Part shown: piece after piece, positions 48,867 to 63,637 of the stretch | Layout of the letters: every line of letters begins with the position of its first letter | How positions within the stretch are numbered: the stretch's first letter is position 1 | NCBI GenBank assembly: GCA_004211785.1 | Contig: SHBX01000001.1 | Span: forward strand, 372,001 to 436,000 | DNA from: Winogradskyella sp. | GTDB taxonomy: Bacteria > Bacteroidota > Bacteroidia > Flavobacteriales > Flavobacteriaceae | DNA length: 64,000 nucleotides | Direction of reading: 5' to 3' | The notes under the pieces: generated by a model | The model's input: only the letters and a program-made list of their open reading frames with translations | What the model was told of the DNA's origin: nothing | Database searches by the model: none | Position numbers and translations under genes: made by a program

Positions 48867-50009
48867 ATGAAACCATCAAAACTAACTTATATAGCGCTTG
48901 GCAGTAATAAGGGCAACAAATTGCAATACTTGCAATCTGCTGTAGATGTTATTTTTCATACCGTCGGCGTGGTAAAAAAACTATCTAAAGTATACAAAAC
49001 ACCAGCTTTAGGTTTTGAAGGTGATGACTTTTATAATGCATGTATTAAAGTCGAAACGCATCTTAGTTCCAAGAAGCTTCTTAAGGCGCTTAAAAATATT
49101 GAAAAACAGTTAGGGCGTTCTGAAAAAACAATTGATGGTTACGAATCTCGAGAAATAGATTTAGATATTCTCTTTTATGAAGCCGAAGTTTTAGACGATA
49201 AAAATCTAACAATTCCACATCCAGAAATTCAAAATCGAAAGTTTGTTTTGCAGCCTTTACTAGATGTTCTGAAAGATTTTAAACATCCAGTTTTAGACAA
49301 AACCATTGAGACTCTTTTTGAAGAATGTGATGATGATTCTCAGATTGAACCAATAAATATTTGGCTAAAAAATCCAAAAAAATCTTATACGTTTAGTAAT
49401 TACAACTATATCGCTATTGAAGGGAATATAGGAGCGGGCAAGACAAGCTTAGCTAATAAGATTGCTCAAGATTTTAACGCTAAACTCATTTTAGAACGTT
49501 TTGCAGATAATGCGTTTTTACCAAAGTTTTATAAAGAACCAGAACGTTACGCCTTCACTTTAGAAATGTCTTTTTTAGCCGACCGTTACCAACAAATTAG
49601 TGATGATTTATCACAGTTAGATTTGTTTAAGGATTTTATGGTTAGCGATTATGATGTCAACAAATCGCTCATATTTTCTAAGGTTACTTTGCCCGAAGAC
49701 GAATTCCGTTTATATAGAAGACTGTTTTACCAGGTTTACAAAGATATTGCTAAGCCTGACTTATATGTCTATTTGTATCAAAATACAGAAAGGCTTAAGG
49801 AGAATATTAAAAAACGCGGTCGCAAATACGAAATCGATATTAAAGACGAATATCTAGAAAAATTGAATTCGGGTTATTTAGAATTTTTAAAATCTCAAAC
49901 AGAGCTTAATGTGAAAATCATTGATATTTCAGAGCGAGATTTTATAAAAAATCGTGAGGATTATTTATGGATTTTAAATGAAATTAATGATGAAGTACAA
50001 AGTAATTGA
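48867..50009 (+). CDS. folK: Fusion of FolK (HPPK) and deoxynucleoside kinase
   Basis: 380 residues with two enzymes in one chain. Residues 1-160 are 6-hydroxymethyl-7,8-dihydropterin pyrophosphokinase: ALGSNKGNKLQYLQSA and YESREIDLDILF, with the Mg-binding Asp98 and Asp100, and IPHPEIQNRKFVLQPLLD. Residues about 178-375 are a deoxynucleoside kinase: P-loop GNIGAGKT (186-193), ERFADNAFLPKFY and LYQNTERLKENIKKRGRKYE with the LID-like arginines. A short linker (EPINIWLKNPKKS) joins them. The reading frame is uninterrupted, so the fusion is real as sequenced. It overlaps the next gene by about 20 bases. Confidence 0.92.
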   Translation: MKPSKLTYIALGSNKGNKLQYLQSAVDVIFHTVGVVKKLSKVYKTPALGFEGDDFYNACIKVETHLSSKKLLKALKNIEKQLGRSEKTIDGYESREIDLDILFYEAEVLDDKNLTIPHPEIQNRKFVLQPLLDVLKDFKHPVLDKTIETLFEECDDDSQIEPINIWLKNPKKSYTFSNYNYIAIEGNIGAGKTSLANKIAQDFNAKLILERFADNAFLPKFYKEPERYAFTLEMSFLADRYQQISDDLSQLDLFKDFMVSDYDVNKSLIFSKVTLPEDEFRLYRRLFYQVYKDIAKPDLYVYLYQNTERLKENIKKRGRKYEIDIKDEYLEKLNSGYLEFLKSQTELNVKIIDISERDFIKNREDYLWILNEINDEVQSN

Positions 50010-51900: not shown

Positions 51901-54513
51901 TTGGCTAAAAAGGTAAAAAAAGAAACACCACTAATGAAGCAATACAATGCCATAAAGGTAAAGTATCCTGATGCATTATTGCTGTTTAGAGTTGGGGATT
52001 TCTATGAGACCTTTGGAAGCGATGCTGTAAAGGCTTCAAAGATTTTAGATATCATTTTAACCAAGCGTGGTGCTGGTAGTGAAAGTGAAACTGAACTTGC
52101 TGGGTTTCCTCACCATTCGTTGAATACCTATTTGCCTAAATTGGTTAGAGCAGGTGAACGCGTTGCCATTTGCGACCAATTAGAAGACCCAAAACAAACC
52201 AAAAAAATTGTAAAGCGTGGTGTTACAGAATTAGTGACGCCTGGCGTAGCATTGAACGATGATATTCTGCATTCAAAATCTAATAACTTTCTATGCGCTG
52301 TTCATTTTGATAAAAAATACATTGGTGTTTCCTTCTTAGATATTTCTACGGGTGAGTTTTTAACTTCTCAAGGTAATGCCGAGTATATTGACAAATTGCT
52401 TCAAAATTTTAATCCAAGTGAAGTATTAATTTCTAAGGCAAGCAGAAAAGAATTTACTGAGACTTTTGGAAGCAATTTCCATACATTTTATTTAGAGGGT
52501 TGGGTGTTTCAGGCTGATTATGCGCACGAAACACTAACTAAACATTTCAATACTAAAACGCTCAAAGGTTTTGGGATTGAAGATTTGTACGAAGGCATTA
52601 TAGCATCTGGAGTAGTGCTTCATTATTTGAGTGAAACACGTCATAATAGGCTAGAACATATCGCCACAATTTCGAGGATTGCAACTGATGATTATGTGTG
52701 GATGGATAAGTTTACCATTCGAAATTTAGAACTATATCATTCCACTAACGCCAATGCTGTAACACTTATTAATGTTATTGATAAGACCATTTCTGCAATG
52801 GGCGGACGTACTTTAAAGCGTTGGTTAGCGTTACCTCTAAAACACGCGGATAAGATAAAACAACGTCACGAAGTGGTTCAGTTTTTATTAGATAATGAAG
52901 GCGTACTTCAGAAGGTTCAAGCTCAGATAAAGCACATTGGCGATATAGAACGTTTAATTTCTAAGATTGCAACCACCAAAGTGAGCCCAAGAGAAGTTAT
53001 ACAGCTTAAAAACTCATTAGAGGCTATTGTTCCCATAAAATCTGTTGCTGAAACTTGTAAAAATGAAGCTTTAAAAGTATTAGGTGAAAGCTTAAATAAT
53101 TGTGATTTACTTCGCGAAAAGATAAAGCAGACTCTTAATGAAGAAGCGCCAGTAAATGTCCTTAAAGGAAATACAATTGCTGAAGGTTTTTCACAAGAAT
53201 TAGATGAGCTAAGAGGTCTGTCTAAATCTGGGAAAGATTATTTAGATAACATGCTTAAGCGCGAAAGTGAACGTACTGGTATCACATCACTTAAAATAGC
53301 ATCAAATAATGTATTTGGATATTATATAGAAGTTCGTAATTCTCATAAAGATAAAGTCCCAGAAGAGTGGATTAGAAAACAAACACTCGTCAATGCAGAA
53401 CGTTATATTACAGAAGAATTAAAAGAATACGAAGCCAAAATTTTAGGTGCAGAAGAGCGTATTTTAGCCATTGAGCAACAGCTATTTTCCGAACTGGTAC
53501 AATGGATGCATCAGTTTATCATTCAGGTACAACAGAACGCACAATTGATTGGGCAGTTAGATTGCTTGTGTGGGTTTGCTAGTTTGGCAAAAGCTAATAA
53601 ATATAACTATCCGCAAATTGATGATAGCTTTGATTTAGAGATTAAAGATGGGCGTCACCCAGTTATAGAAAAGCAATTACCGTTAGACGAACCATACATT
53701 GCTAATGATGTTTATCTCGATAGGGAATCTCAGCAAATCATTATGATAACTGGACCAAATATGTCTGGTAAATCTGCTATTTTAAGACAAACTGCTTTGA
53801 TTGTATTGTTGGCACAGATAGGAAGTTTTGTGCCAGCTAGAGAAGCCAGAATAGGATTGGTAGATAAGATTTTTACACGTGTTGGTGCTAGTGATAATAT
53901 TTCAATGGGTGAGTCTACTTTTATGGTAGAAATGAATGAAACGGCGTCTATTCTTAACAATATTTCAGATAGAAGTTTGGTATTGTTAGATGAAATTGGC
54001 CGTGGTACAAGTACTTACGATGGTATTTCTATCGCTTGGGCAATCAGTGAATATTTACATGAGCATCCCGCAAGGCCAAAAACACTTTTTGCAACACATT
54101 ATCATGAACTTAATGAAATGACTGAGACGTTTGCAAGAATTAAGAATTTCAATGTTGCGGTAAAAGAGTTAAAAGACAATGTGCTTTTTGTTCGAAAGTT
54201 AGTTGAAGGTGGTAGTGAGCATAGTTTTGGTATTCATGTGGCTAAAATGGCTGGTATGCCTCAGCAAGTGATACGTCGTGCTAATAAAATACTATCAAAA
54301 TTAGAAAAGTCGCATTCTAGCGAAGAGTTAACTGATAAAGTAAAAACGTTAAAAGATGACTTGCAGTTGAGTTTTTTCAACCTAGATGATCCATTATTAG
54401 AAGAAATAAAAGATGAAATTTTGCACACAGATATCGACACTCTTACACCAGTTGAAGCTTTAATGAAGCTCAATGAAATAAAACGCATGTTGCTTAAGAA
54501 AAAACAAGCTTAA
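51901..54513 (+). CDS. mutS: DNA mismatch repair protein MutS
   Basis: 870 residues from a TTG start ([19 protein letters not shown]). The mismatch-reading Phe-X-Glu is Phe34-Tyr35-Glu36 ([11 protein letters not shown]), and the C-terminal ATPase has Walker A GPNMSGKS (about residues 618-625) and Walker [17 protein letters not shown]. The closing helix-turn-helix segment contains [16 protein letters not shown]. It recognises mismatches and recruits MutL. It stands alone, with about 110 bases of divergent space to the SpoU gene and tRNA genes after it. Confidence 0.96.
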
Positions 54514-54543
54514 AATAAATTCTATTTATTTTTAAAAAAGGCT

Positions 54544-54572
54544 TTGCTTTTCTAATAAATATTTTAAATTTG
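54544..54572 (+). promoter_or_regulatory. Promoter of the tRNA-Gly/tRNA-Leu unit
   Basis: TTG (54544-54546), 18 bases, TAAATTTG (54565-54572): a strong match to TTG-N17-23-TANNTTTG. The first tRNA starts 35 bases later. This is the cleanest promoter in the window. Confidence 0.7.
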
Positions 54573-54606
54573 CATCCGCTTTTACGGCGAAAGTTCTTTA
54601 AAAATT

Positions 54607-54678
54607 GCGAAAGTAGCTCAGGGGTAGAGCATCACCTTGCCAAGGTGGAGGTCGTGGGTTCAAATCCCATCTTTCGCT
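54607..54678 (+). tRNA. tRNA-Gly (anticodon GCC)
   Basis: The acceptor arms GCGAAAG (54607-54613) and CTTTCGC (54671-54677) pair fully, with discriminator T at 54678. The anticodon loop TTGCCAA has GCC at 54639-54641, and the T-arm is GTGGGTTCAAATCCCAT. CCA is not encoded. Confidence 0.96.
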
Positions 54679-54712
54679 CTATATAAAATAGGTTACAGTC
54701 TGTAACCAAGTT

Positions 54713-54796
54713 GCTGAAGTGGTGGAATTGGTAGACACGTTGGACTTAAAATTCAATGAACATTAGTTCGTACGGGTTCAAGTCCCGTCTTCAGTA
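54713..54796 (+). tRNA. tRNA-Leu (anticodon UAA)
   Basis: The acceptor arms GCTGAAG (54713-54719) and CTTCAGT (54789-54795, ending in a G-U pair) carry discriminator A. The anticodon loop CTTAAAA has TAA at 54747-54749. The long variable arm (about TGAACATTAGTTCG) is typical of class II tRNAs. CCA is not encoded. It lies 34 bases after tRNA-Gly. Confidence 0.95.
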
Positions 54797-54803
54797 CAGA
54801 GAA

Positions 54804-54832
54804 AAGCTCAATCGAAAGATTGGGCTTTTTTG
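54804..54832 (+). terminator. Rho-independent terminator after the tRNA genes
   Basis: AAGCTCAATC, loop GAAA, GATTGGGCTT, then TTTTTG: a 10-bp stem (one G-U pair) with tetraloop and U-tract 8 bases after tRNA-Leu. Confidence 0.9.
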
Positions 54833-54959
54833 TTTTAAGGATGTTTTGTAATGAAATTTGGATAAATGTAGAACCATACATTGATGTTGTACTATGAATC
54901 AAAAGCCTTTATTTTATTGATTAGTTTAGTTTTTACTACCTTAACAAAAAAAACATTCT

Positions 54960-57788
54960 ATGTACTTTGATAATTTAAAATCTCCCTTAGTTAAATTATT
55001 ATCTTGTTTTGCTTTCTTTCTGTTTCATTCTGTAATTCAGTCACAAGAACTTCCTCCGATTGAAAGATTTACACCTCAAGATTACAAGGCAGATGATCAA
55101 AATTGGTCGATAAGCCAGAGTAGTGACGAAAGCATATATATAGCCAATAATAAAGGGCTTTTAGAATACAATGGCGCCCGTTGGAATCTGTACAACACGC
55201 CAAATCAAACAATTATAAGATCTGTAGCTGTTGTAAATGATTTAGTTTACACAGGTAGCTATATGGATTTTGGTTGTTGGAAAAGAGATGCCTTTGGAAA
55301 ATTAATTTATGAATCTCTAGCTAAAGATTTTGATAAAAATCTAGTTGAAGATGAGGAGTTTTGGAATATCATCTCCTTTGGAGAATTTGTTCTTTTTCAG
55401 TCTTTAGATCGTGTCTATATTTATAATACAGAAACTAAAAAATTCAGAATAATTGATTCCGAAACAAGAATTGTTAAGGCTTTTAAAGTAGATGAATCTA
55501 TTTATTTTCAAGAAAGTGGAGTGGGTATATCAAAAATTGAAAATGGAAATGCGGTTAAGCTTGAAAACACATCTATTTTAAGTGATAAAGAAGTCGTCAA
55601 TATATTTAAAAATGATAAAACGCTACTTTTTCAAACTAGAGAGAATGGGTTTTTTGAGTATCAAGAGCAGGAAATAAAAAAATGGGAAATTTCAGCTAAT
55701 GGCTTACTTTCTAGAGTAAGTGTTTATAATAGCATAAGGCTGAGGAATGGGAATTTTATTCTAGGTACAATTTCAAATGGCGTAATCAAACTTGATGCCG
55801 AGGGCAACTTACTGTTTCAGATTAACAAAAATTATGGCTTGTCTAATAATACTGTTCTGTCAGCTTTTCAGGATATGTCAGGTAATATTTGGTTGGGATT
55901 AGATAATGGTATTAACGTACTTAATTTAAATTCACCTTATAGAGTCTATACTGACAACCAAGGATATTTAGGAACTGTTTATGCTTCAGAAAAAACAGAG
56001 AATGCTCTCTATTTAGGCACAAACCAAGGCTTGTTCTACAGACCCTTGAATAGTAATAATAAGTTTGATTTAATTTCTGGAACTAAAGGGCAAGTATGGT
56101 TTTTGGAACGCATCAACGGCACTTTATTTTGCGGGCATGATAAAGGTAGTTTTACAATTAAAAATGGAGAAGCTACGCAAATAACTAAAGAGAAAGGAAC
56201 TTGGAATATTAAGTCCATTAATGGAAAACCAGATATGCTTATCCAAGGGAGTTACGATGGTTTGAGCATTCTTGAAAAAAAACAAAACGGGAATTGGAAG
56301 TTTAAGCATAAAATCAATGGGTTTAATATATCTACTAGATATTTTGAGTTTATTGACAATGAAGAGTTATTGGTGAGTCATGAGTATAAAGGTGTTTATA
56401 GGATAAAACTTGATAGTTCACTAGAAAATGTTCTTAAGTACACCAAAGAAGATGTTGAAAAGGGTATTGGCTCAAGTGTTATTAGATATAGAGATAGTAT
56501 ACTTTATACATATAAAGATGGAGTTTATGTATACGATAAAAGCAATAAGATTATAAAAAAGAGTGAATTTTTAAAAGATTATTTCTCAGATTATAATTAT
56601 GTGTCAGGTAAGTTAATACACGACAAAGAAAATAGTAGACTTTGGTGCTTTTTTAAAGATCAATTGATATACGTGGAGCCTGGTAAATTAACAGGACAAC
56701 CAACCGTTAACCCCATTGATTTACCTAGCGATTTAAGAAAAAGCAAATTAGGATTTGAAAATATACTACACCTTAAAGATGATAGCTATTTAATGGGAAC
56801 TACAGATGGTTATTTGATTATAGATATAAATCGCTTTAAGAAACGAGAATATTATATATCCATAAATAATGCCTCATATTCATCTTTGCAACAAGACATA
56901 AAACCAATAAACATATCCGAAGAAGTCACACTATTAAACAAGCAAAATGACTTGTATTTTAATTATAGTGTTTCAGATTTTGATAAACTAACGCCATCTT
57001 TATATCAGCATAGACTTAAAGGAATTTATGATTCATGGAGTACTTGGTCACCGAAATCAAATATCCTTTTTGATAATTTGCCTCATGGTAGTTATACTTT
57101 TGAAACAAGAGCCAAAGTTGGTAATGATTTATCTACTAATACGGCATCTTATTCATTTACAATCCTAAAACCTTGGTATTTAAGACCTTTAGCAATTGTT
57201 TGCTATGTTTTTTTGTTTCTCCTAATAGCGGCTGTAATTCAGTATTTAAATAGAATGTATTATAAGAAGCAAAAGAAGAAATTGGTAATTGCAAAAGAAA
57301 AAGAGTTTGAAATAAAAGAGTTAGAAAATCAAAAGCAAATAATGGCGTTTAGAAATAAAACGCTTCGACAAGATATAGATAGTAAAAATAGAGAGCTTGG
57401 ATTGTCTACTATGAATTTAATTCGTAAAAACGAATTTCTTAATAGTCTTAAAAAAGAGCTCAATAATATAGAAGGTAGTAAAGAACTCAATAAAATTATA
57501 AAGATTATTGACAAAAACATTAATAACACTGAAGATTGGAAGTTCTTTGAAGAAGCGTTTAATAATGCAGATAAAGACTTCTTAAAAAAGATTAAAAAAT
57601 TGCATCCGCCATTAACTCCAAACGATTTAAAGTTGTGTGCTTATTTAAGACTTAACCTTTCATCCAAAGAAATAGCGCCATTGTTAAATATCTCTCATCG
57701 AAGTGTTGAAGTAAAGCGATATAGATTGCGGAAAAAGATGGAATTGCCCCATGAAGCTAGCTTAACAAATTATATTTTAGAGATATAA
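54960..57788 (+). CDS. Beta-propeller membrane regulator with C-terminal LuxR-type HTH
   Basis: 942 residues: signal sequence (ending VIQSQ, about residue 29), a long propeller region (about 40-680) with two-component-regulator-propeller motifs (DQNWSISQSSDESIYIANNKGLLEYNG, ENALYLGTNQGLFYRP), a Y_Y_Y (triple tyrosine) domain (about 685-735, QHRLKGIYDSWSTWSP), one membrane helix (about 742-764), a coiled coil and a C-terminal HTH (about 880-942, LTPNDLKLCAYLRLNLSSKEIAPLLNISHRSVEVKRYRLRKK in part). It has no kinase domain, so it likely senses a sugar outside the inner membrane and binds DNA directly from the membrane. It precedes the glycan-degradation genes and is their probable regulator. Confidence 0.88.
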   Translation: MYFDNLKSPLVKLLSCFAFFLFHSVIQSQELPPIERFTPQDYKADDQNWSISQSSDESIYIANNKGLLEYNGARWNLYNTPNQTIIRSVAVVNDLVYTGSYMDFGCWKRDAFGKLIYESLAKDFDKNLVEDEEFWNIISFGEFVLFQSLDRVYIYNTETKKFRIIDSETRIVKAFKVDESIYFQESGVGISKIENGNAVKLENTSILSDKEVVNIFKNDKTLLFQTRENGFFEYQEQEIKKWEISANGLLSRVSVYNSIRLRNGNFILGTISNGVIKLDAEGNLLFQINKNYGLSNNTVLSAFQDMSGNIWLGLDNGINVLNLNSPYRVYTDNQGYLGTVYASEKTENALYLGTNQGLFYRPLNSNNKFDLISGTKGQVWFLERINGTLFCGHDKGSFTIKNGEATQITKEKGTWNIKSINGKPDMLIQGSYDGLSILEKKQNGNWKFKHKINGFNISTRYFEFIDNEELLVSHEYKGVYRIKLDSSLENVLKYTKEDVEKGIGSSVIRYRDSILYTYKDGVYVYDKSNKIIKKSEFLKDYFSDYNYVSGKLIHDKENSRLWCFFKDQLIYVEPGKLTGQPTVNPIDLPSDLRKSKLGFENILHLKDDSYLMGTTDGYLIIDINRFKKREYYISINNASYSSLQQDIKPINISEEVTLLNKQNDLYFNYSVSDFDKLTPSLYQHRLKGIYDSWSTWSPKSNILFDNLPHGSYTFETRAKVGNDLSTNTASYSFTILKPWYLRPLAIVCYVFLFLLIAAVIQYLNRMYYKKQKKKLVIAKEKEFEIKELENQKQIMAFRNKTLRQDIDSKNRELGLSTMNLIRKNEFLNSLKKELNNIEGSKELNKIIKIIDKNINNTEDWKFFEEAFNNADKDFLKKIKKLHPPLTPNDLKLCAYLRLNLSSKEIAPLLNISHRSVEVKRYRLRKKMELPHEASLTNYILEI

Positions 57789-58097
57789 AACAACAACATT
57801 TAAGCTTTTTTATACAACATTACCTATACATAATATCTTTTTTGTATTCTCTGCTTAGTCTTTAGGGCCTCATAAAACCTTGTTATACAGGTGTTTTCAT
57901 TTTTTGTTTAACGTTATAGCAATTTTAACATACATTTTTTGCGATGTATGTTTTTTATAGTGGTATATTTTGTCATATTCGCAATGATATGCTTTAAATT
58001 TACCAAAACCGTAAGAAATGCGCTTTCACTTTATTGATATCACAATCTGTTAAAGAGGAACCCATTCATTAAGAATACACTTAAATAGAAAATAATA
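57789..58097. other. 309-base non-coding control region of the glycan cluster
   Basis: No credible ORF or RNA gene is seen. It is AT-rich and holds an inverted repeat AACATACAT (57927-57935) / ATGTATGTT (57944-57952) with loop TTTTTGCG, followed by TTTTTT. The repeat could be a terminator for the regulator gene or an operator. Further on there are AT-rich runs and TTTAAATTTA near 57993, but no clean TTG/TANNTTTG pair. The promoter of the downstream glycosidase gene is probably here. Confidence 0.45.
57927..57956 (+). terminator. Inverted repeat with U-tract, candidate terminator or operator
   Basis: A 9-base perfect inverted repeat followed by six T. It is 139 bases after the regulator stop and 146 bases before the glycosidase start, so either role is possible. 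Confidence 0.4.
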
Positions 58098-61000
58098 ATG
58101 CAGAAACTAATCCTTGGATTGTTTGCAATCCTAATCTCAACTTCCATTTTTGCTCAAGCTGCTAAAGTTTCTGTTGTCAGTGATGAAAATGGCGATAGGC
58201 TTGTTGTCGATGGTAAAGACTTTATGATTAATGGTATGAATTGGGATTATGTTCCAAGAGGAACCAATGTTATAGATGCAGAATTTTATAAAAAATCAGA
58301 CGACATTATTAAAGCTGGTCTTGATGCTGAGATGTTGCTTTTACAGAACATGAATGTGAATGTTATTAGACAGTATACTGGAGTTCCAGCAAAATGGGTA
58401 AGGTATATTTACGAAAACTATGGTGTTTATACAATGTTAAATGATTCATTTGGACGTTATGGATTAACTATAGATGGTGTTTGGACACCAATTACAGATT
58501 ACAAAGATCCACGAACAAAAGAATTATTAATGTCGGAAATTACTAAAATGGTGACCGACTATAAAAACACACCAGGAATACTTATGTATCTCATTGGAAA
58601 TGAAAATAATTACGGTTTATTCTGGCAAGGGGCAGAGACTGAGGATTTTCCTGAAGGAGATGAAAAGAAAAGAGCAGTAGGAGAACTTAGAGGCCGCCCA
58701 ATGTATAAGCTGATGAATGAAGCAGCAAAAGCAATGAAAGCTATAGATTCTAATCACCCAGTTGCTATTTGTAATGGAGATACATTGTTTTTAGACATAG
58801 TTGCTGATGAATGTCCTGATGTAGATATATATGGTACGAACATGTATCGTGGAGAATCTTTTACTGGTGCTTTTGACGAAGTAAAAGAAGTATATGGAAA
58901 ACCAATCATGTTTACTGAGTTTGGTTCTGATTCTTATAATGCTATTGAAAATGCAGAAGATCAAAGAATGCAAGCCTATTATATGGTTAAAAATTGGGAG
59001 GAAATTTACGCTAACGCTGCCGGTGTTGGAGGTGCAAAAAACTCACTAGGAGGTTTTACATTCCAATTTTCTGATGGATGGTGGAAAGCAGGATTTGATG
59101 ACAGAAAAGATGCAGATACACAGCAAACAGAATCTACATGGAATGCAGGAGGATATAAAATAGACGAAGCTTTTCCTGGTGCTAATAACATGAATGAAGA
59201 ATGGTTTGGGATTTGCGCAAAAGGCCCAACTAATACAAGAGGACTATACACATTATATCCAAGGGCAGCATATTATGCACTTAAGGAGGCACATGCCTTA
59301 AACCCTTACGATGAAGGCGTAGACTCAGAATTCGTTAAAAATTATTTTAAGAATATAAACTTAATGGACGCTGTATTAAAAGCTCGTGGAGATAAAGCTG
59401 CTCTTGGAGCTGGTGATTCGCAAAAGCTTAGTATAAGTAGGCTTGGAGCTCGATTTACAACGTTTAGTACAGGAGGAAATTTACTAACAACTCCTGATAG
59501 CCCAGATCCAACATCTGCATCATTTCCTAATCAATTAGGGTTTGACCATATGCAATCTTATTTTGTAGGTATTCAAGGGAAACCAGCACCAAATATGCGT
59601 GCTAATGTAGACTTTAATATTGTTGGTAATGTCGCTCAAAATCCAATCGATGAAATATTCTATGAAAACAGAGCACGACCTGTTACTGTAGAGGGCGCTA
59701 ATGGAGATGAAATTGTTTTGAACGACAACAATAGAGTTCAAGTGTATAGTGCTGAATTTGAATGGAACGCTAAAGAATTTGATTTAAGAGGGTTCTATAG
59801 AACTGGTCATTATCACTGGGGATATGAAGGCGATTTCTTTGGTTTATATCCTGAAGCCAATTATGGGCCTAACTTAGATATATATGGTGGAGAAATATTA
59901 GGAGCAGAGATTGATGGAAAAGGTGCTTTTAAAGGTTTAAAAGCCGCTATTGGTCCGCAATTATGGTGGGGAGCTAACCCTACAATGCTTTTTAAATATC
60001 ATAAAGAGATAAAGGGCTTTGATGTGACAGGAATCTATCATAGAGATTTTGAAACAGATATACAAATCGATCCTACAACAGGTCAACGAGTATTAGATGC
60101 TAATCAAGTGCGAAGTGGTATTATTCCAGCATTTCCAACTGAAAGAGCTACACTTGCTGTGGAAAGAGAGTTTGGTAAATTTGATGTTATGATAGGTGGT
60201 ATATGGGCAGGAAGTCCATTAAACGATCTTACATTTCAAGATGTTAGAGGTACTTCGGGGAACTATGTAGTTTATGAAGATAGAATCCAATCCAGCGATA
60301 ATTGGGGAGGAAAAGTTAAAGTAGAATACAAAGGCGGTAAATTTAATTGGTATGGGCAAGCGGCTTATATGGGCTTAGTTGCCAATGGAGGTGCTGACCA
60401 AACGCAAACGTTTACCGGATGGAAATTAAAAGATAACGGAAGCGGTAATAAAGTAAATGTTTTATCTGGTTTTACATACTCTACAGGAGATTTTCAGATA
60501 GCACCAAACTTTATGTATCAAAAACCCTTAGTAGACCCTATGCCAAATGACGTTCAAGGGCCTGGGCGACTAAGAAACGTTATTGATGATCCATTTGCCG
60601 TACGAGGTAATCGTGAAACATATGGTTACGAAATGCTGCTTACTTACGATCCAACACCTGGAACATGGATGTATGAGTGGAATAATGATAGAGCTGAAGA
60701 TGCAGAGTTTGCTGCAAATCTAGGTTTTACATATCGTCGTTTACCGACAACTACAGATGCTCATATTGGTTTCTTGGCTAATAGACAGTTTTTTGCTTTT
60801 CCTCAATCAGCGCCAGCCGAAGATTTATGGGAAGTTAGCTCTAGAATGGTGTCAAAGCTTAATTCAGATTTAGGCATTATAGGTAATTTCTACTACGGTA
60901 ATGGTCAAGCTAATGGAGATAGTGATAGATTGGTTAAACGTTTCGGTGGTGACATTAGAGCTATTTACAAAAAGAACATGTTACAAACCCATGTAAAAGT

Positions 61001-61292
61001 GAACGATTGGGGACCTTTTGATTATCATAGAGATTTTAACCTTACTTACCCTTTACAGCTTATGGTTGATTTATCAACTAGTATTGGTAAACCAGATTGG
61101 TTTATTTTACCAAGTACTAGAATAGGTATTAGAGGAACTTGGAGATCATTAAATGAATTCTCACCACGATATTCGCCAAATGCTGTCCCAGCAAATACTT
61201 TCCCACCATTACCACCTATAAGTGCTGTCGGTTTTGACAACGGGCAAGAATGGGAGATTAGAACTTATGTACACATTAACATTGGAAAATAA
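58098..61292 (+). CDS. Clan GH-A glycosidase fused to a putative outer-membrane beta-barrel
   Basis: 1064 residues. The signal peptide ends at STSIFAQ (residue 20). Residues about 25-420 form a TIM-barrel glycosidase: NGMNWDYVPRGTN, LIGNENNYG with likely acid/base Glu169, and IMFTEFGSD with likely nucleophile Glu274, as in GH2/GH5-like clan GH-A enzymes. Residues about 440-1064 show repeated alternating strands ending in aromatic residues and short turns (AKEFDLRGFYRTGHYHWGY, KVKVEYKGGKFNWYGQAAYM, NLGFTYRRLPTTTDAHIGFL, EWEIRTYVHINIGK at the end), the look of an outer-membrane barrel. No SusC-type plug or T9SS sorting domain was found. Beside the GH16 gene, a beta-glucan substrate is likely; the exact GH family is uncertain. 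Confidence 0.82.
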   Translation: MQKLILGLFAILISTSIFAQAAKVSVVSDENGDRLVVDGKDFMINGMNWDYVPRGTNVIDAEFYKKSDDIIKAGLDAEMLLLQNMNVNVIRQYTGVPAKWVRYIYENYGVYTMLNDSFGRYGLTIDGVWTPITDYKDPRTKELLMSEITKMVTDYKNTPGILMYLIGNENNYGLFWQGAETEDFPEGDEKKRAVGELRGRPMYKLMNEAAKAMKAIDSNHPVAICNGDTLFLDIVADECPDVDIYGTNMYRGESFTGAFDEVKEVYGKPIMFTEFGSDSYNAIENAEDQRMQAYYMVKNWEEIYANAAGVGGAKNSLGGFTFQFSDGWWKAGFDDRKDADTQQTESTWNAGGYKIDEAFPGANNMNEEWFGICAKGPTNTRGLYTLYPRAAYYALKEAHALNPYDEGVDSEFVKNYFKNINLMDAVLKARGDKAALGAGDSQKLSISRLGARFTTFSTGGNLLTTPDSPDPTSASFPNQLGFDHMQSYFVGIQGKPAPNMRANVDFNIVGNVAQNPIDEIFYENRARPVTVEGANGDEIVLNDNNRVQVYSAEFEWNAKEFDLRGFYRTGHYHWGYEGDFFGLYPEANYGPNLDIYGGEILGAEIDGKGAFKGLKAAIGPQLWWGANPTMLFKYHKEIKGFDVTGIYHRDFETDIQIDPTTGQRVLDANQVRSGIIPAFPTERATLAVEREFGKFDVMIGGIWAGSPLNDLTFQDVRGTSGNYVVYEDRIQSSDNWGGKVKVEYKGGKFNWYGQAAYMGLVANGGADQTQTFTGWKLKDNGSGNKVNVLSGFTYSTGDFQIAPNFMYQKPLVDPMPNDVQGPGRLRNVIDDPFAVRGNRETYGYEMLLTYDPTPGTWMYEWNNDRAEDAEFAANLGFTYRRLPTTTDAHIGFLANRQFFAFPQSAPAEDLWEVSSRMVSKLNSDLGIIGNFYYGNGQANGDSDRLVKRFGGDIRAIYKKNMLQTHVKVNDWGPFDYHRDFNLTYPLQLMVDLSTSIGKPDWFILPSTRIGIRGTWRSLNEFSPRYSPNAVPANTFPPLPPISAVGFDNGQEWEIRTYVHINIGK

Positions 61293-61300
61293 TTTTTAAG

Positions 61301-62737
61301 ATGAAAAAAATTAATTATATAAATAAAGCACTTGTACTACTAGCTGTAATATCAGTGATGTTTGCTTGTGAAAGAGGATTGTCTGACGATGTTGAGTTTG
61401 CATCATTCCCAACTACTGGAGACATATTTACTGACGCACCTGTAGGTCTTACAGATGAGTTTTTTGTTTCTTTTGATCCTGCAGGTGGTGCTAATACTCA
61501 GGGATTTGGAACTGATGATAATGTCGCTTTTGAAGGCAGCTCTTCAATCAGAATAGATGTGCCAGCACCCAATGATCCTAATGGAGGGTTTATTGGCGGA
61601 ATTTTCCTTGATCGTGGAACAGGAAGAGACCTTAGCGGTTATGATGCATTGACATTTTGGGCAAGAGCATCAACAACTGCGTCCATAGGTTTGTTTGGAT
61701 TTGGTACTGATTTCGTAGAAAATAAATATAGTGTTGGCAAATCAGACACCCAACTTTCAACAGATTGGCGAAAGTATACTATCCCAATTCCTGATGCTTC
61801 AAAATTAATACAAGAAAGAGGGATGTTTATATTTTCAGCTGGAACTAATAGTACAAATGGATTTGGTTTCACGTTTTGGATTGATGAATTACGTTTTGAA
61901 AATTTAGGTACTATTGCGCAATCAAGACCGCAAATTTTTGGTGGACAAGATATCTCTCAGCAAGCTTTTACAGATACAACCTTACCAGTTACAGGTCTAG
62001 CTCAAATATTTAACCTTGAAGACGGAAGTAATACTACAATAGAGCCAGCAGCAGCATATTTCGATTTTGAATCATCAAATTTAGATGTAGCTATAGTTAA
62101 TGAACAAGGAGAAATATCTATAATAGGAGAAGGTACGGCCGTAATAACAGCTCAACTTAATGGAGTTTTAGCGGAAGGTTCATTAGAGGTTACATCTATT
62201 GGGTCATTTCAGTTTGCGCCAGTACCTACAGAAGACCCAGCTTCAGTAGTTTCTTTATTTAGTGATGCTTATACAGACATTCCTGTATCAAGGTATAATT
62301 CGTTTTTCGAACCTTTTCAAACAACTTTAGGAGGAGTAGTGCCAGTCGCTGATCAATCAATAATTAGCTATACTGATTTAAATTTCGTTGGTATTGTTTT
62401 TAATGACGTTATTTTTCCAGCGGAAGCAGTGCCGCCAATAAATGCTACTAATCTAACGACTATGCATATAGATGTTAATGTACAAGAAGCTGTACAATCT
62501 GGAGATCGACTATTATTAGAATTAACTAATTACGGAGCTTCAGAGACAGTTGGTTCATATTTGATTAATGGTAGTGAGCTTGTTCAAGACACTTGGGTAA
62601 GTTTTGATATACCATTATCCAGTTTTGCTGGACTGACAGATATGTCCCGTATAGGATTACTATTATTTAATTCTTCGGATAGTTCAAATAATCCAACAAT
62701 ATCAAATGTCTTTTTAGATAATATCTATTTCTATTAA
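61301..62737 (+). CDS. Surface lipoprotein with carbohydrate-binding-like and Ig-like domains
   Basis: 478 residues with a lipoprotein signal (VISVMFAC, Cys23) followed by ERGLSDD. Residues about 50-200 form a galactose-binding-like beta-sandwich as in CBMs (SSSIRIDVPAPN, DALTFWARAS, WRKYTIPIPDAS, FTFWIDELRFE). Residues about 205-300 form a bacterial Ig-like (BIG_2) domain (VAIVNEQGEISIIGEGTAVITAQ), and the remainder is another sandwich (DTWVSFDIPLSSFAGL, ISNVFLDNIYFY). No catalytic motif is seen. It probably binds glycan at the surface for the neighbouring hydrolases. It lies 8 bases after the barrel-fused enzyme and 30 bases before GH16. Confidence 0.82.
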   Translation: MKKINYINKALVLLAVISVMFACERGLSDDVEFASFPTTGDIFTDAPVGLTDEFFVSFDPAGGANTQGFGTDDNVAFEGSSSIRIDVPAPNDPNGGFIGGIFLDRGTGRDLSGYDALTFWARASTTASIGLFGFGTDFVENKYSVGKSDTQLSTDWRKYTIPIPDASKLIQERGMFIFSAGTNSTNGFGFTFWIDELRFENLGTIAQSRPQIFGGQDISQQAFTDTTLPVTGLAQIFNLEDGSNTTIEPAAAYFDFESSNLDVAIVNEQGEISIIGEGTAVITAQLNGVLAEGSLEVTSIGSFQFAPVPTEDPASVVSLFSDAYTDIPVSRYNSFFEPFQTTLGGVVPVADQSIISYTDLNFVGIVFNDVIFPAEAVPPINATNLTTMHIDVNVQEAVQSGDRLLLELTNYGASETVGSYLINGSELVQDTWVSFDIPLSSFAGLTDMSRIGLLLFNSSDSSNNPTISNVFLDNIYFY

Positions 62738-62806
62738 AGCTATCAGAAATTTATTTTAAAAAATAATATGAAAATGAATAACATAAGAATAAGAAAAAAA
62801 CAAACC

Positions 62807-63637
62807 ATGAAGACTTTACTTATTGGTTTGATAATGCTTGTGTCTTTGTCAAGTTGTAATACAGACGAAGCACAAACGGTAGCCACTTTCGATAACTTAG
62901 TTCTCGAAGATAATTTTAATAATGATGGTACTATAGATACAACAATATGGAATTTTGATATTGGTGATGGTACAGCACAAGGTATACCTGGTTGGGGAAA
63001 TAACGAATTACAGTATTACACCGATAGATCAGATAATGCAACTGTAGAAAACGGATTCCTATTAATCACCGCCAAACAAGAAGAATTTAATGGCGCGCAA
63101 TATACATCTGCAAGATTGCAAACTAAAAACAAGTTTCAGCAACAATATGGACGTTTTGAAGCTCGCATTCGCTTACCATATGGTCAAGGAATGTGGCCAG
63201 CATTTTGGTTGTTAGGAGATGATAGTGATGGTTCTATTTGGCCTCAAATTGGAGAGATAGATATTATGGAAAATGTAGGAGATGAGCCGATTCAAATATT
63301 TGGAACTGTTCATGGTCCAGGATATTCCGGAGCAGAATCTGTATCAAAAAGCTACACATTAGAAGGTTCTAGAGTAGATACAGAGTTTCATGTATATGGA
63401 ATAGAATGGGGGCCAAACTATATCAATTATTATATCGATGATGTATTATACAATCAAATTACACCTGAAGATATCGATGAAGCAACAAATGGTCAAGGAG
63501 AATGGGTGTTTAACGATAGACCATTTTACATCATTTTAAATTTAGCTGTAGGCGGCAATCTTCCAGGTCCACCTAATGCAGAAACAGAATTTCCACAAAC
63601 TATGCTTGTAGATTACGTACGAGTTTACCAACAATAA
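62807..63637 (+). CDS. GH16 family glycoside hydrolase (laminarinase-like lipoprotein)
   Basis: The ATG at 62807 gives a lipoprotein signal (MKTLLIGLIMLVSLSSC, Cys17) and 276 residues; an ATG at 62768 would add 13 basic residues. The catalytic motif GEIDIMENVG has the two Glu residues and the Asp of GH16 (E-x-D-x-x-E), and WPAFWLLGDD, FEARIRLPYGQGMWPA and HVYGIEWGPNYINYYIDD are typical of GH16 beta-1,3(4)-glucanases. It would cut laminarin-type glucan endo-wise at the cell surface. It is followed by a PKD lipoprotein in the same direction. Confidence 0.92.
   Translation: MKTLLIGLIMLVSLSSCNTDEAQTVATFDNLVLEDNFNNDGTIDTTIWNFDIGDGTAQGIPGWGNNELQYYTDRSDNATVENGFLLITAKQEEFNGAQYTSARLQTKNKFQQQYGRFEARIRLPYGQGMWPAFWLLGDDSDGSIWPQIGEIDIMENVGDEPIQIFGTVHGPGYSGAESVSKSYTLEGSRVDTEFHVYGIEWGPNYINYYIDDVLYNQITPEDIDEATNGQGEWVFNDRPFYIILNLAVGGNLPGPPNAETEFPQTMLVDYVRVYQQ

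Follow-up and report, generated by a model that had tools for sequence, protein, structure and literature searches.

A gene predicted to encode a glycosidase joined in one frame to an outer-membrane β-barrel lies in a 64,000-nucleotide stretch of a Winogradskyella sp. contig (SHBX01000001.1, positions 372,001 to 436,000; hereafter the window). This gene, which we call the fusion, belongs to a laminarin gene cluster with the order regulator, fusion, lipoprotein LIPO478, glycoside hydrolase family 16 (GH16) enzyme, PKD/CBM lipoprotein, GH149, GH17, GH30 and MFS carrier. Since the contig stops within the MFS gene, any genes past that point are unseen. The coordinates of the features are collected in Table 1.

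Domain architecture of the fusion

An earlier note, made from the letters alone, had described one continuous frame of 1064 residues, and the frame is indeed open without a stop. The export signal was recognized by eye, and the models predict that the protein is composed of this signal, a clan GH-A glycosidase and an outer-membrane β-barrel. Both glutamates that the note had placed in a TIM-barrel, Glu169 in GNEN and Glu274 in FTEFG, are invariant in all 130 aligned rows (the window and 129 others, 123 of which are distinct over the last 900 residues), and the Pfam GH2 TIM-barrel model matches this part of the protein. The proposed barrel of about 620 residues running to the C-terminus was recovered in strands and length, but it starts near residue 444 and not at 430. 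Pfam found no Plug, TonB-barrel, autotransporter or Por secretion-tail domain in the full fusion protein, in agreement with the claim that a SusC-like plug and a type IX secretion sorting domain are missing, and matched nothing in its last 640 residues; the same library does detect a Por secretion tail, in a GH81 protein at another fusion locus (L176). A lipobox is absent from 125 of the 129 rows of the fusion family, as judged by a simple pattern. The full-length model reached a predicted local distance difference test (pLDDT) of 72.8 and a predicted template modelling score (pTM) of 0.51.

Table 1. Coordinates in the window of the fusion, its parts and the neighbouring genes.
Feature	Position	Strand	Basis
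Fusion open reading frame	58098-61292	+	single open frame, 1064 residues
Probable Sec signal peptide, residues 1-20, ending in SIFAQ, without lipobox	58098..58157	+	by eye
Predicted catalytic clan GH-A TIM-barrel domain, residues 21-403, nearest to GH158/GH157/GH2	58158..59306	+	Pfam GH2_C, Foldseek, PDB profile
Codon of E169, predicted acid/base (GNEN)	58602..58604	+	conservation; weak alignment to GNE of BuGH158
Codon of E274, predicted nucleophile (FTEFG)	58917..58919	+	conservation; weak alignment to ITEWG of BuGH158
Mostly helical stretch, residues 404-443, joining enzyme to barrel	59307..59426	+	helices in barrel-only model
Predicted outer-membrane β-barrel, residues 444-1064, 26 strands in the model	59427..61289	+	model, Foldseek, strand statistics
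Near-invariant aromatic long loop, residues 570-598 (GHYHWGYEGDFFGLYPEANYGPNLDIYGG)	59805..59891	+	conservation 0.93 vs 0.74 for all long loops
Presumed mutS, chromosomal landmark common to the SusC/D-type cluster of congeners	51901..54513	+	taken by us to be mutS from its sequence
Regulator, LuxR-type (GerE) with Y_Y_Y (below cut-off), first gene of the cluster	54960..57788	+	Pfam
LIPO478, lipoprotein of 478 residues, 8 bases 3' of the fusion	61301..62737	+	CERGLSDD start
GH16 enzyme, probable laminarinase, lipoprotein-like start (by eye)	62768..63637	+	Pfam GH16 1.8e-26
Start of PKD/CBM4_9 lipoprotein gene, which runs beyond the window into L021	63643..64000	+	CBM_4_9 in the continuation; PKD by eye

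The C-terminal β-barrel

A model of the barrel part alone (residues 404-1064, 67 rows) reached pLDDT 74.0 and pTM 0.71 and contains 26 strands of at least seven residues, the first of them from residue 444. The gaps between strands average 20.5 residues after odd strands and 4.7 after even ones (permutation p 0.0003), and hydrophobic alternation scores 1.32, a value that none of 2000 within-strand shuffles (0.78 +/- 0.11) attains. Foldseek searches with the barrel model yielded 277 matches at E ≤0.001, and all 50 that were inspected are outer-membrane barrels, among the matches being TonB receptors, LptD, MOMP and OmpM1. Strands, alternation and Foldseek matches thus agree with the earlier proposal that the enzyme is carried on its own outer-membrane barrel. 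Taken together, the model, the Foldseek rows and the strand statistics exclude that β-sandwich binding domains stand in its place.

Pfam, NCBIfam and PDB sequences were also searched for the barrel under another name, without result. Pfam did not match the window's barrel, and the 67 barrel rows gave matches at chance level only (best E 0.044), with no porin, Plug (PF07715) or TonB-receptor family among them; the PDB copy searched held no sequence relative. The aromatic loop at residues 570-598 is a candidate site for a substrate or a partner.

Outer-membrane barrels carry their long loops outside and their short turns inside. By this rule both termini, and with them the enzyme, would lie in the periplasm. 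The model bears out this part of the earlier proposal by placing both termini on the short-turn side; the actual facing we infer from the rule.

The catalytic domain

The GH2 TIM-barrel is the sole Pfam model above its cut-off (28.9 bits against a cut-off of 21, residues 34-283), accompanied by a sub-threshold match to a glycoside hydrolase catalytic core. NCBIfam gave only β-galactosidase matches for the fusion protein, all sub-threshold, and Pfam found none of the N-terminal sugar-binding and sandwich domains of GH2; the TIM-barrel follows directly after the signal peptide. Foldseek searches with the full-length model placed a GH158 structure on top (9p26, 7.3e-13), followed by GH157, BuGH158 and GH2 glucuronidases, with target-normalised TM-scores of 0.45-0.54 for the GH158 and GH157 chains, the titles of which mention laminarin and laminaribiose. 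A catalytic profile of 44 domains, compared to PDB, matched BuGH158 (6pal) at a whole-sequence E-value of 1.3e-5, made up of three weak stretches (best independent E-value 0.4), and then GH158(Pro) (1.3e-4), GH157 (3.3e-4) and a GH2 glucuronidase (4.8e-4); the profiles A3 and A4 comprise the window and 43 of 47 diverse sequences chosen. Barrel-less relatives of the enzyme gave sub-threshold matches to GH72 (glucanosyltransferase).

BuGH158, an endo-β-1,3-glucanase with the catalytic pair E137 (acid/base) and E220, resembles the fusion enzyme in both its acid/base and its nucleophile motif (PMC7157763; this and the papers cited below were available in excerpts, to which our statements on them refer). 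It is among the best structural and profile matches to the catalytic domain, yet remote, and it has a C-terminal Ig-like domain where the fusion has the helical stretch and the barrel. Gene context and remote homology suggest that the enzyme is probably a β-1,3-glucan-active GH-A glycosidase, of unsettled family.

Distribution of the fusion

A scan for relatives with one genome per species yielded at least 589 related stretches, of which the best 80 were used; these come mainly from Winogradskyella and other Flavobacteriaceae, and each has one long frame, which in one case stops at the contig end. Across the phylum, 35 of 395 Bacteroidota genomes matched the barrel query, and in 33 of these the match is a single frame of at least 1028 residues covering enzyme and barrel. 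Matches to the barrel outside the window's class have 51-62% identity. Genome G291 (L225:1361-3210) carries a shifted enzyme in two frames and a truncated barrel of which about the first 206 residues match, and G176 has the enzyme without the barrel; a barrel without the enzyme, or with another enzyme, occurs in none of the 395 genomes. The search for further barrel-tailed glycosidases that the earlier note had proposed thus uncovered a conserved family across Bacteroidota, and recurrence across relatives and genomes excludes a chance or single-genome fusion.

Barrel-less close enzymes with 53-61% identity (L207:6216-7631, L211:12021-13334, L216:7177-8535, L224:2022-3461) end just before the position of strand 1, which indicates that the barrel is a separable module; the helical stretch at residues 404-443 is retained as the C-terminus of barrel-less relatives. 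By eye, the enzyme in L216 has a lipoprotein-like start. The one in L207 lies three genes after a SusD gene, which itself stands behind what by eye looks like the tail of SusC. Enzyme relatives of about 600 residues were also seen at L159:6326-8125 and L160:7114-8910, in genomes that carry the fusion as well; no sugar cluster surrounds them within the stretches read.

The fusion is matched in 23 of 36 congeners, once as a short fragment and once in two frames. Nine others have a short enzyme only, which we call the solo enzyme, four have neither and none has both. A probability for this mutual exclusion was set aside, because the solo type forms one clade (see below). A broken copy of the fusion, in two frames that meet near residue 265, lies at G031:C164:56417-59580.

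The laminarin gene cluster and LIPO478

The GH149 protein of the cluster is recognized by NCBIfam with 1797 bits (cut-off 1150). By eye it lacks a signal, whereas GH17 and GH30 have lipoprotein-like starts. GH149 is present in 34 of the 35 genomes that match the barrel (the exception being G291), compared to 36 of the 360 others, a comparison not corrected for kinship.

In 93 of 96 loci LIPO478 is the next gene 3' of the fusion; in the remaining three the contig ends within 230 bases. By a loose pattern, 86 of the 93 homologues have a lipobox, mostly followed by a run similar to C-E-R-x-x-S-D-D. The CERGLSDD start of LIPO478 resembles, in sequence, the surface-export signal of Flavobacterium johnsoniae lipoproteins, the consensus of which is SDDFE (PMC5080379). 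LIPO478 belongs to no Pfam family and has no match to the SusD families of Pfam.

Some other genes were seen in and around such clusters. Between LIPO478 and GH16, two loci carry a gene without a match in the reference set (L179:13726-15027, L187:15036-16310). The GH81 protein with the Por secretion tail (L176:5651-8233) lies just upstream of the fusion on the opposite strand. Further upstream in the window, at 48867-50009, is one frame that presumably encodes HPPK (folK) fused to a deoxynucleoside kinase.

SusC and SusD genes in relation to the fusion

Laminarin makes up one of the largest pools of sugar in the ocean, and SusC/SusD genes and proteins are what its uptake by bacteria is read from. 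In the window's cluster, no susCD pair lies between the regulator and the end of the contig or in the 9 kb that precede the regulator. Elsewhere in the window's genome, two SusC genes score above the model cut-off (C11, C15), with SusD genes alongside; no glycoside hydrolase genes were seen by eye next to these SusC genes. Of the 70 loci in which 7 kb or more flank the fusion on either side, 49 lack same-strand matches to a TonB-dependent transporter or SusD, a count that leaves out 26 shorter loci and rests on BLAST searches with the window genome's own genes, so that a distant SusD may be missed.

All nine congeners with the solo enzyme share another arrangement, SusC-SusD-lipoprotein-GH16-GH149-GH17-solo enzyme-GH30 with a regulator in front, and none of them has the fusion. 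In seven of these nine, the presumed mutS precedes the regulator by no more than about 5 kb; some 12 kb of G032 did not contain it, and the contig of G014 stops before it could be reached. It is also found upstream in the window and in six of the eleven Winogradskyella loci among the best 80 stretches. SusC/D-type and fusion-type clusters thus occur near mutS in different congeners (L189-L204 compared to window 51901-61292). The GH149 proteins of the SusC/D type have 63-65% identity to the window's, a divergence which indicates that whole clusters differ and not two genes alone. Whole uptake clusters have apparently been exchanged at one chromosomal place.

A quick GH149 tree with midpoint rooting was built from 76 rows, selected for having either the fusion or the solo enzyme. 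In it the SusC/D-solo type forms a single clade nested within the fusion type, and the presence of SusC/D requires 10 changes.

A proposed role for the fusion and its alternatives

We propose that the fusion is an enzyme-coupled, plugless outer-membrane channel that would admit laminari-oligosaccharides and trim them on arrival, a reading to which we assign a probability of roughly 0.55. Its conservation as a fusion, the intact catalytic pair, the predicted 26-strand barrel without a plug and the location in a laminarin cluster are consistent with such a role. Also in its favour are the frequency of GH149 in the genomes that match the barrel, the 49 loci without SusC/D-type matches, the SusC and SusD genes of all nine congeners with a solo enzyme, the barrel-less close enzyme near SusC/SusD genes in L207, and the conservation of lumen-facing residues above lipid-facing ones (0.79 vs 0.73, p 0.0009). 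Surface GH16 would cut laminarin, and LIPO478 would collect the fragments on top of the barrel, in the manner of SusD with SusC, though with no TonB plug. Laminari-oligosaccharides would pass through the barrel, and the glycosidase domain at its periplasmic side would shorten or debranch them as they come in. Trimmed inside, they could not leave, so that the inward gradient would stay steep. GH17 and GH30 would continue the degradation, and the MFS carrier would import short products for phosphorolysis by GH149 in the cytoplasm. In this scheme we infer the pore activity and its direction, the substrate, the contact between the partners and the orientation of the enzyme. A broader proposal, which we regard as tentative and somewhat doubtful, is that of a TonB-independent glycan import, in which the barrel and LIPO478 would form a plugless counterpart of SusC/SusD and hydrolysis at the periplasmic exit would make uptake one-way, through trapping by cutting.

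Several observations speak against the channel. The confidence of the barrel model is moderate (pLDDT 74), and its query-normalised TM-scores to known barrels are low (0.22-0.37), as would be expected if the number of strands differs, but also a caution. At pTM 0.51, the full-length model does not fix the arrangement of enzyme and barrel. The comparison of lumen-facing with lipid-facing residues is a weak test, because the sides were assigned by hydrophobicity. LIPO478 is not entirely confined to fusion loci: among 43 barrel-less stretches one partial match passed E 1e-10, and weaker partial matches, of 26-29% identity over about 212 residues, lead to PKD lipoproteins of SusC/D clusters. The solo enzymes are only 25-28% identical to the fused one and, as their type is one clade, stand for one event and not nine. 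SusC/D-type genes were found near only four or five of 20 hand-picked barrel-less GH149 loci (of 37 genomes), so their absence alone proves little. The window's genome is 89.7% complete, and its C11 SusC/D pair runs off the contig, leaving that side unseen. Finally, SusC/D-type genes adjoin the fusion in 21 of the 70 loci, which means that it is not a strict replacement for SusC/D.

This last point, together with the SusC genes at C11 and C15, would also be expected if the barrel were an anchor or scaffold that fastens the enzyme to the outer membrane from within or serves as the dock for a surface complex of LIPO478 and GH16, with sugars entering through SusC/D elsewhere or through a general porin. 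By eye, the solo enzymes of the congeners start like lipoproteins and would thus be anchored without a barrel, a fact that cuts both ways, for if a lipid anchor suffices in relatives, 26 strands and a lumen side conserved above the lipid side exceed what an anchor needs. We therefore consider a mere anchor unlikely. The barrel could also serve in a display resembling that of autotransporters, the enzyme being carried through or with it to act outside the cell. Type Va autotransporters have the order signal peptide, passenger, helix and C-terminal barrel, which the fusion matches, including the helices that precede strand 1 in the model; their barrels have about 12 strands, however, whereas this one has 26 in about 620 residues and no autotransporter match in Pfam. 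Since the helical stretch is also kept in barrel-less relatives, and the cluster already has GH16 for cutting at the surface, such a display appears improbable. LptD, chains of which are among the Foldseek matches, has a barrel of 26 strands, and the fusion might by analogy be an export or assembly machine of the LptD or BcsC kind, in which the enzyme would edit a product leaving through the barrel. Yet the neighbours that could be recognized serve degradation, binding or uptake and include no synthase, and we give this explanation hardly any weight.

If the enzyme-coupled channel is real, the fusion may be an unrecognized entry route for a major ocean sugar, in clusters that often lack the usual uptake channel. 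Surveys that count SusC/D would then miss a common laminarin route, clusters of carbohydrate-active enzymes (CAZymes) lacking susCD would gain a mechanism, and a channel with its own hydrolase would allow a test of whether cutting the cargo can drive uptake.

Comparison with known systems

In its N-terminal domain followed by an outer-membrane barrel, the fusion resembles EstA, BcsC and PgaA, which have barrels of 12-16 strands; these serve in surface display or export, not import.

The earlier note had put the system forward as the best candidate for an undescribed one, which does not hold for the gene. A 2026 paper on laminarin clusters of Muricauda lists a GH2 β-glycosidase upstream in the cluster (PMC13188888). 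Two contigs named there, VCNI01000001 and SGIU01000001, are our loci L100 and L037; both carry the fusion and, given the same gene content, the listed β-glycosidase is very likely the same gene. In the available part of that paper it is described as GH2 only, with no mention of a barrel. What may be new is the barrel, which is absent from the family databases searched. A search of the open-access literature, covering mostly titles and the beginnings of abstracts, with subscription papers and preprints outside its scope, found no description of an enzyme-barrel fusion. A bloom study reports laminarin clusters in which GH149 is accompanied by an unclassified GH0 (PMC10108472), which might be this gene or another one. 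In Maribacter, GH2 occurs in some laminarin polysaccharide utilization loci (PULs), and a CAZyme cluster contains GH16, GH17 and MFS (PMC11345257); in Winogradskyella, laminarin PULs have been reported for almost all genomes of the genus (PMC9723794).

The work on GH149 separates PULs from CAZyme clusters lacking susCD, a class that includes the present locus and for which the excerpt available offers no outer-membrane route (PMC5827456). An enzyme-transporter fusion in a laminarin cluster has likewise been described in Formosa, where FbGH17b joins a GH17 domain to a membrane-spanning transport protein, and its authors were aware of no such transporter-CAZyme fusion elsewhere (PMC6246565). It differs from the fusion in the family of its enzyme and in its partner, which is described as a membrane-spanning transport protein and not as an outer-membrane barrel. 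The SusC/SusD pairs of laminarin PULs (e.g. PMC6298971) likewise place a large barrel beside a lipoprotein. Such a pair takes the place of the fusion and LIPO478 in the nine solo-enzyme congeners. Unlike SusC, however, the fusion has no plug or TonB-receptor domain, carries an enzyme fused N-terminally and is predicted to have 26 strands instead of 22.

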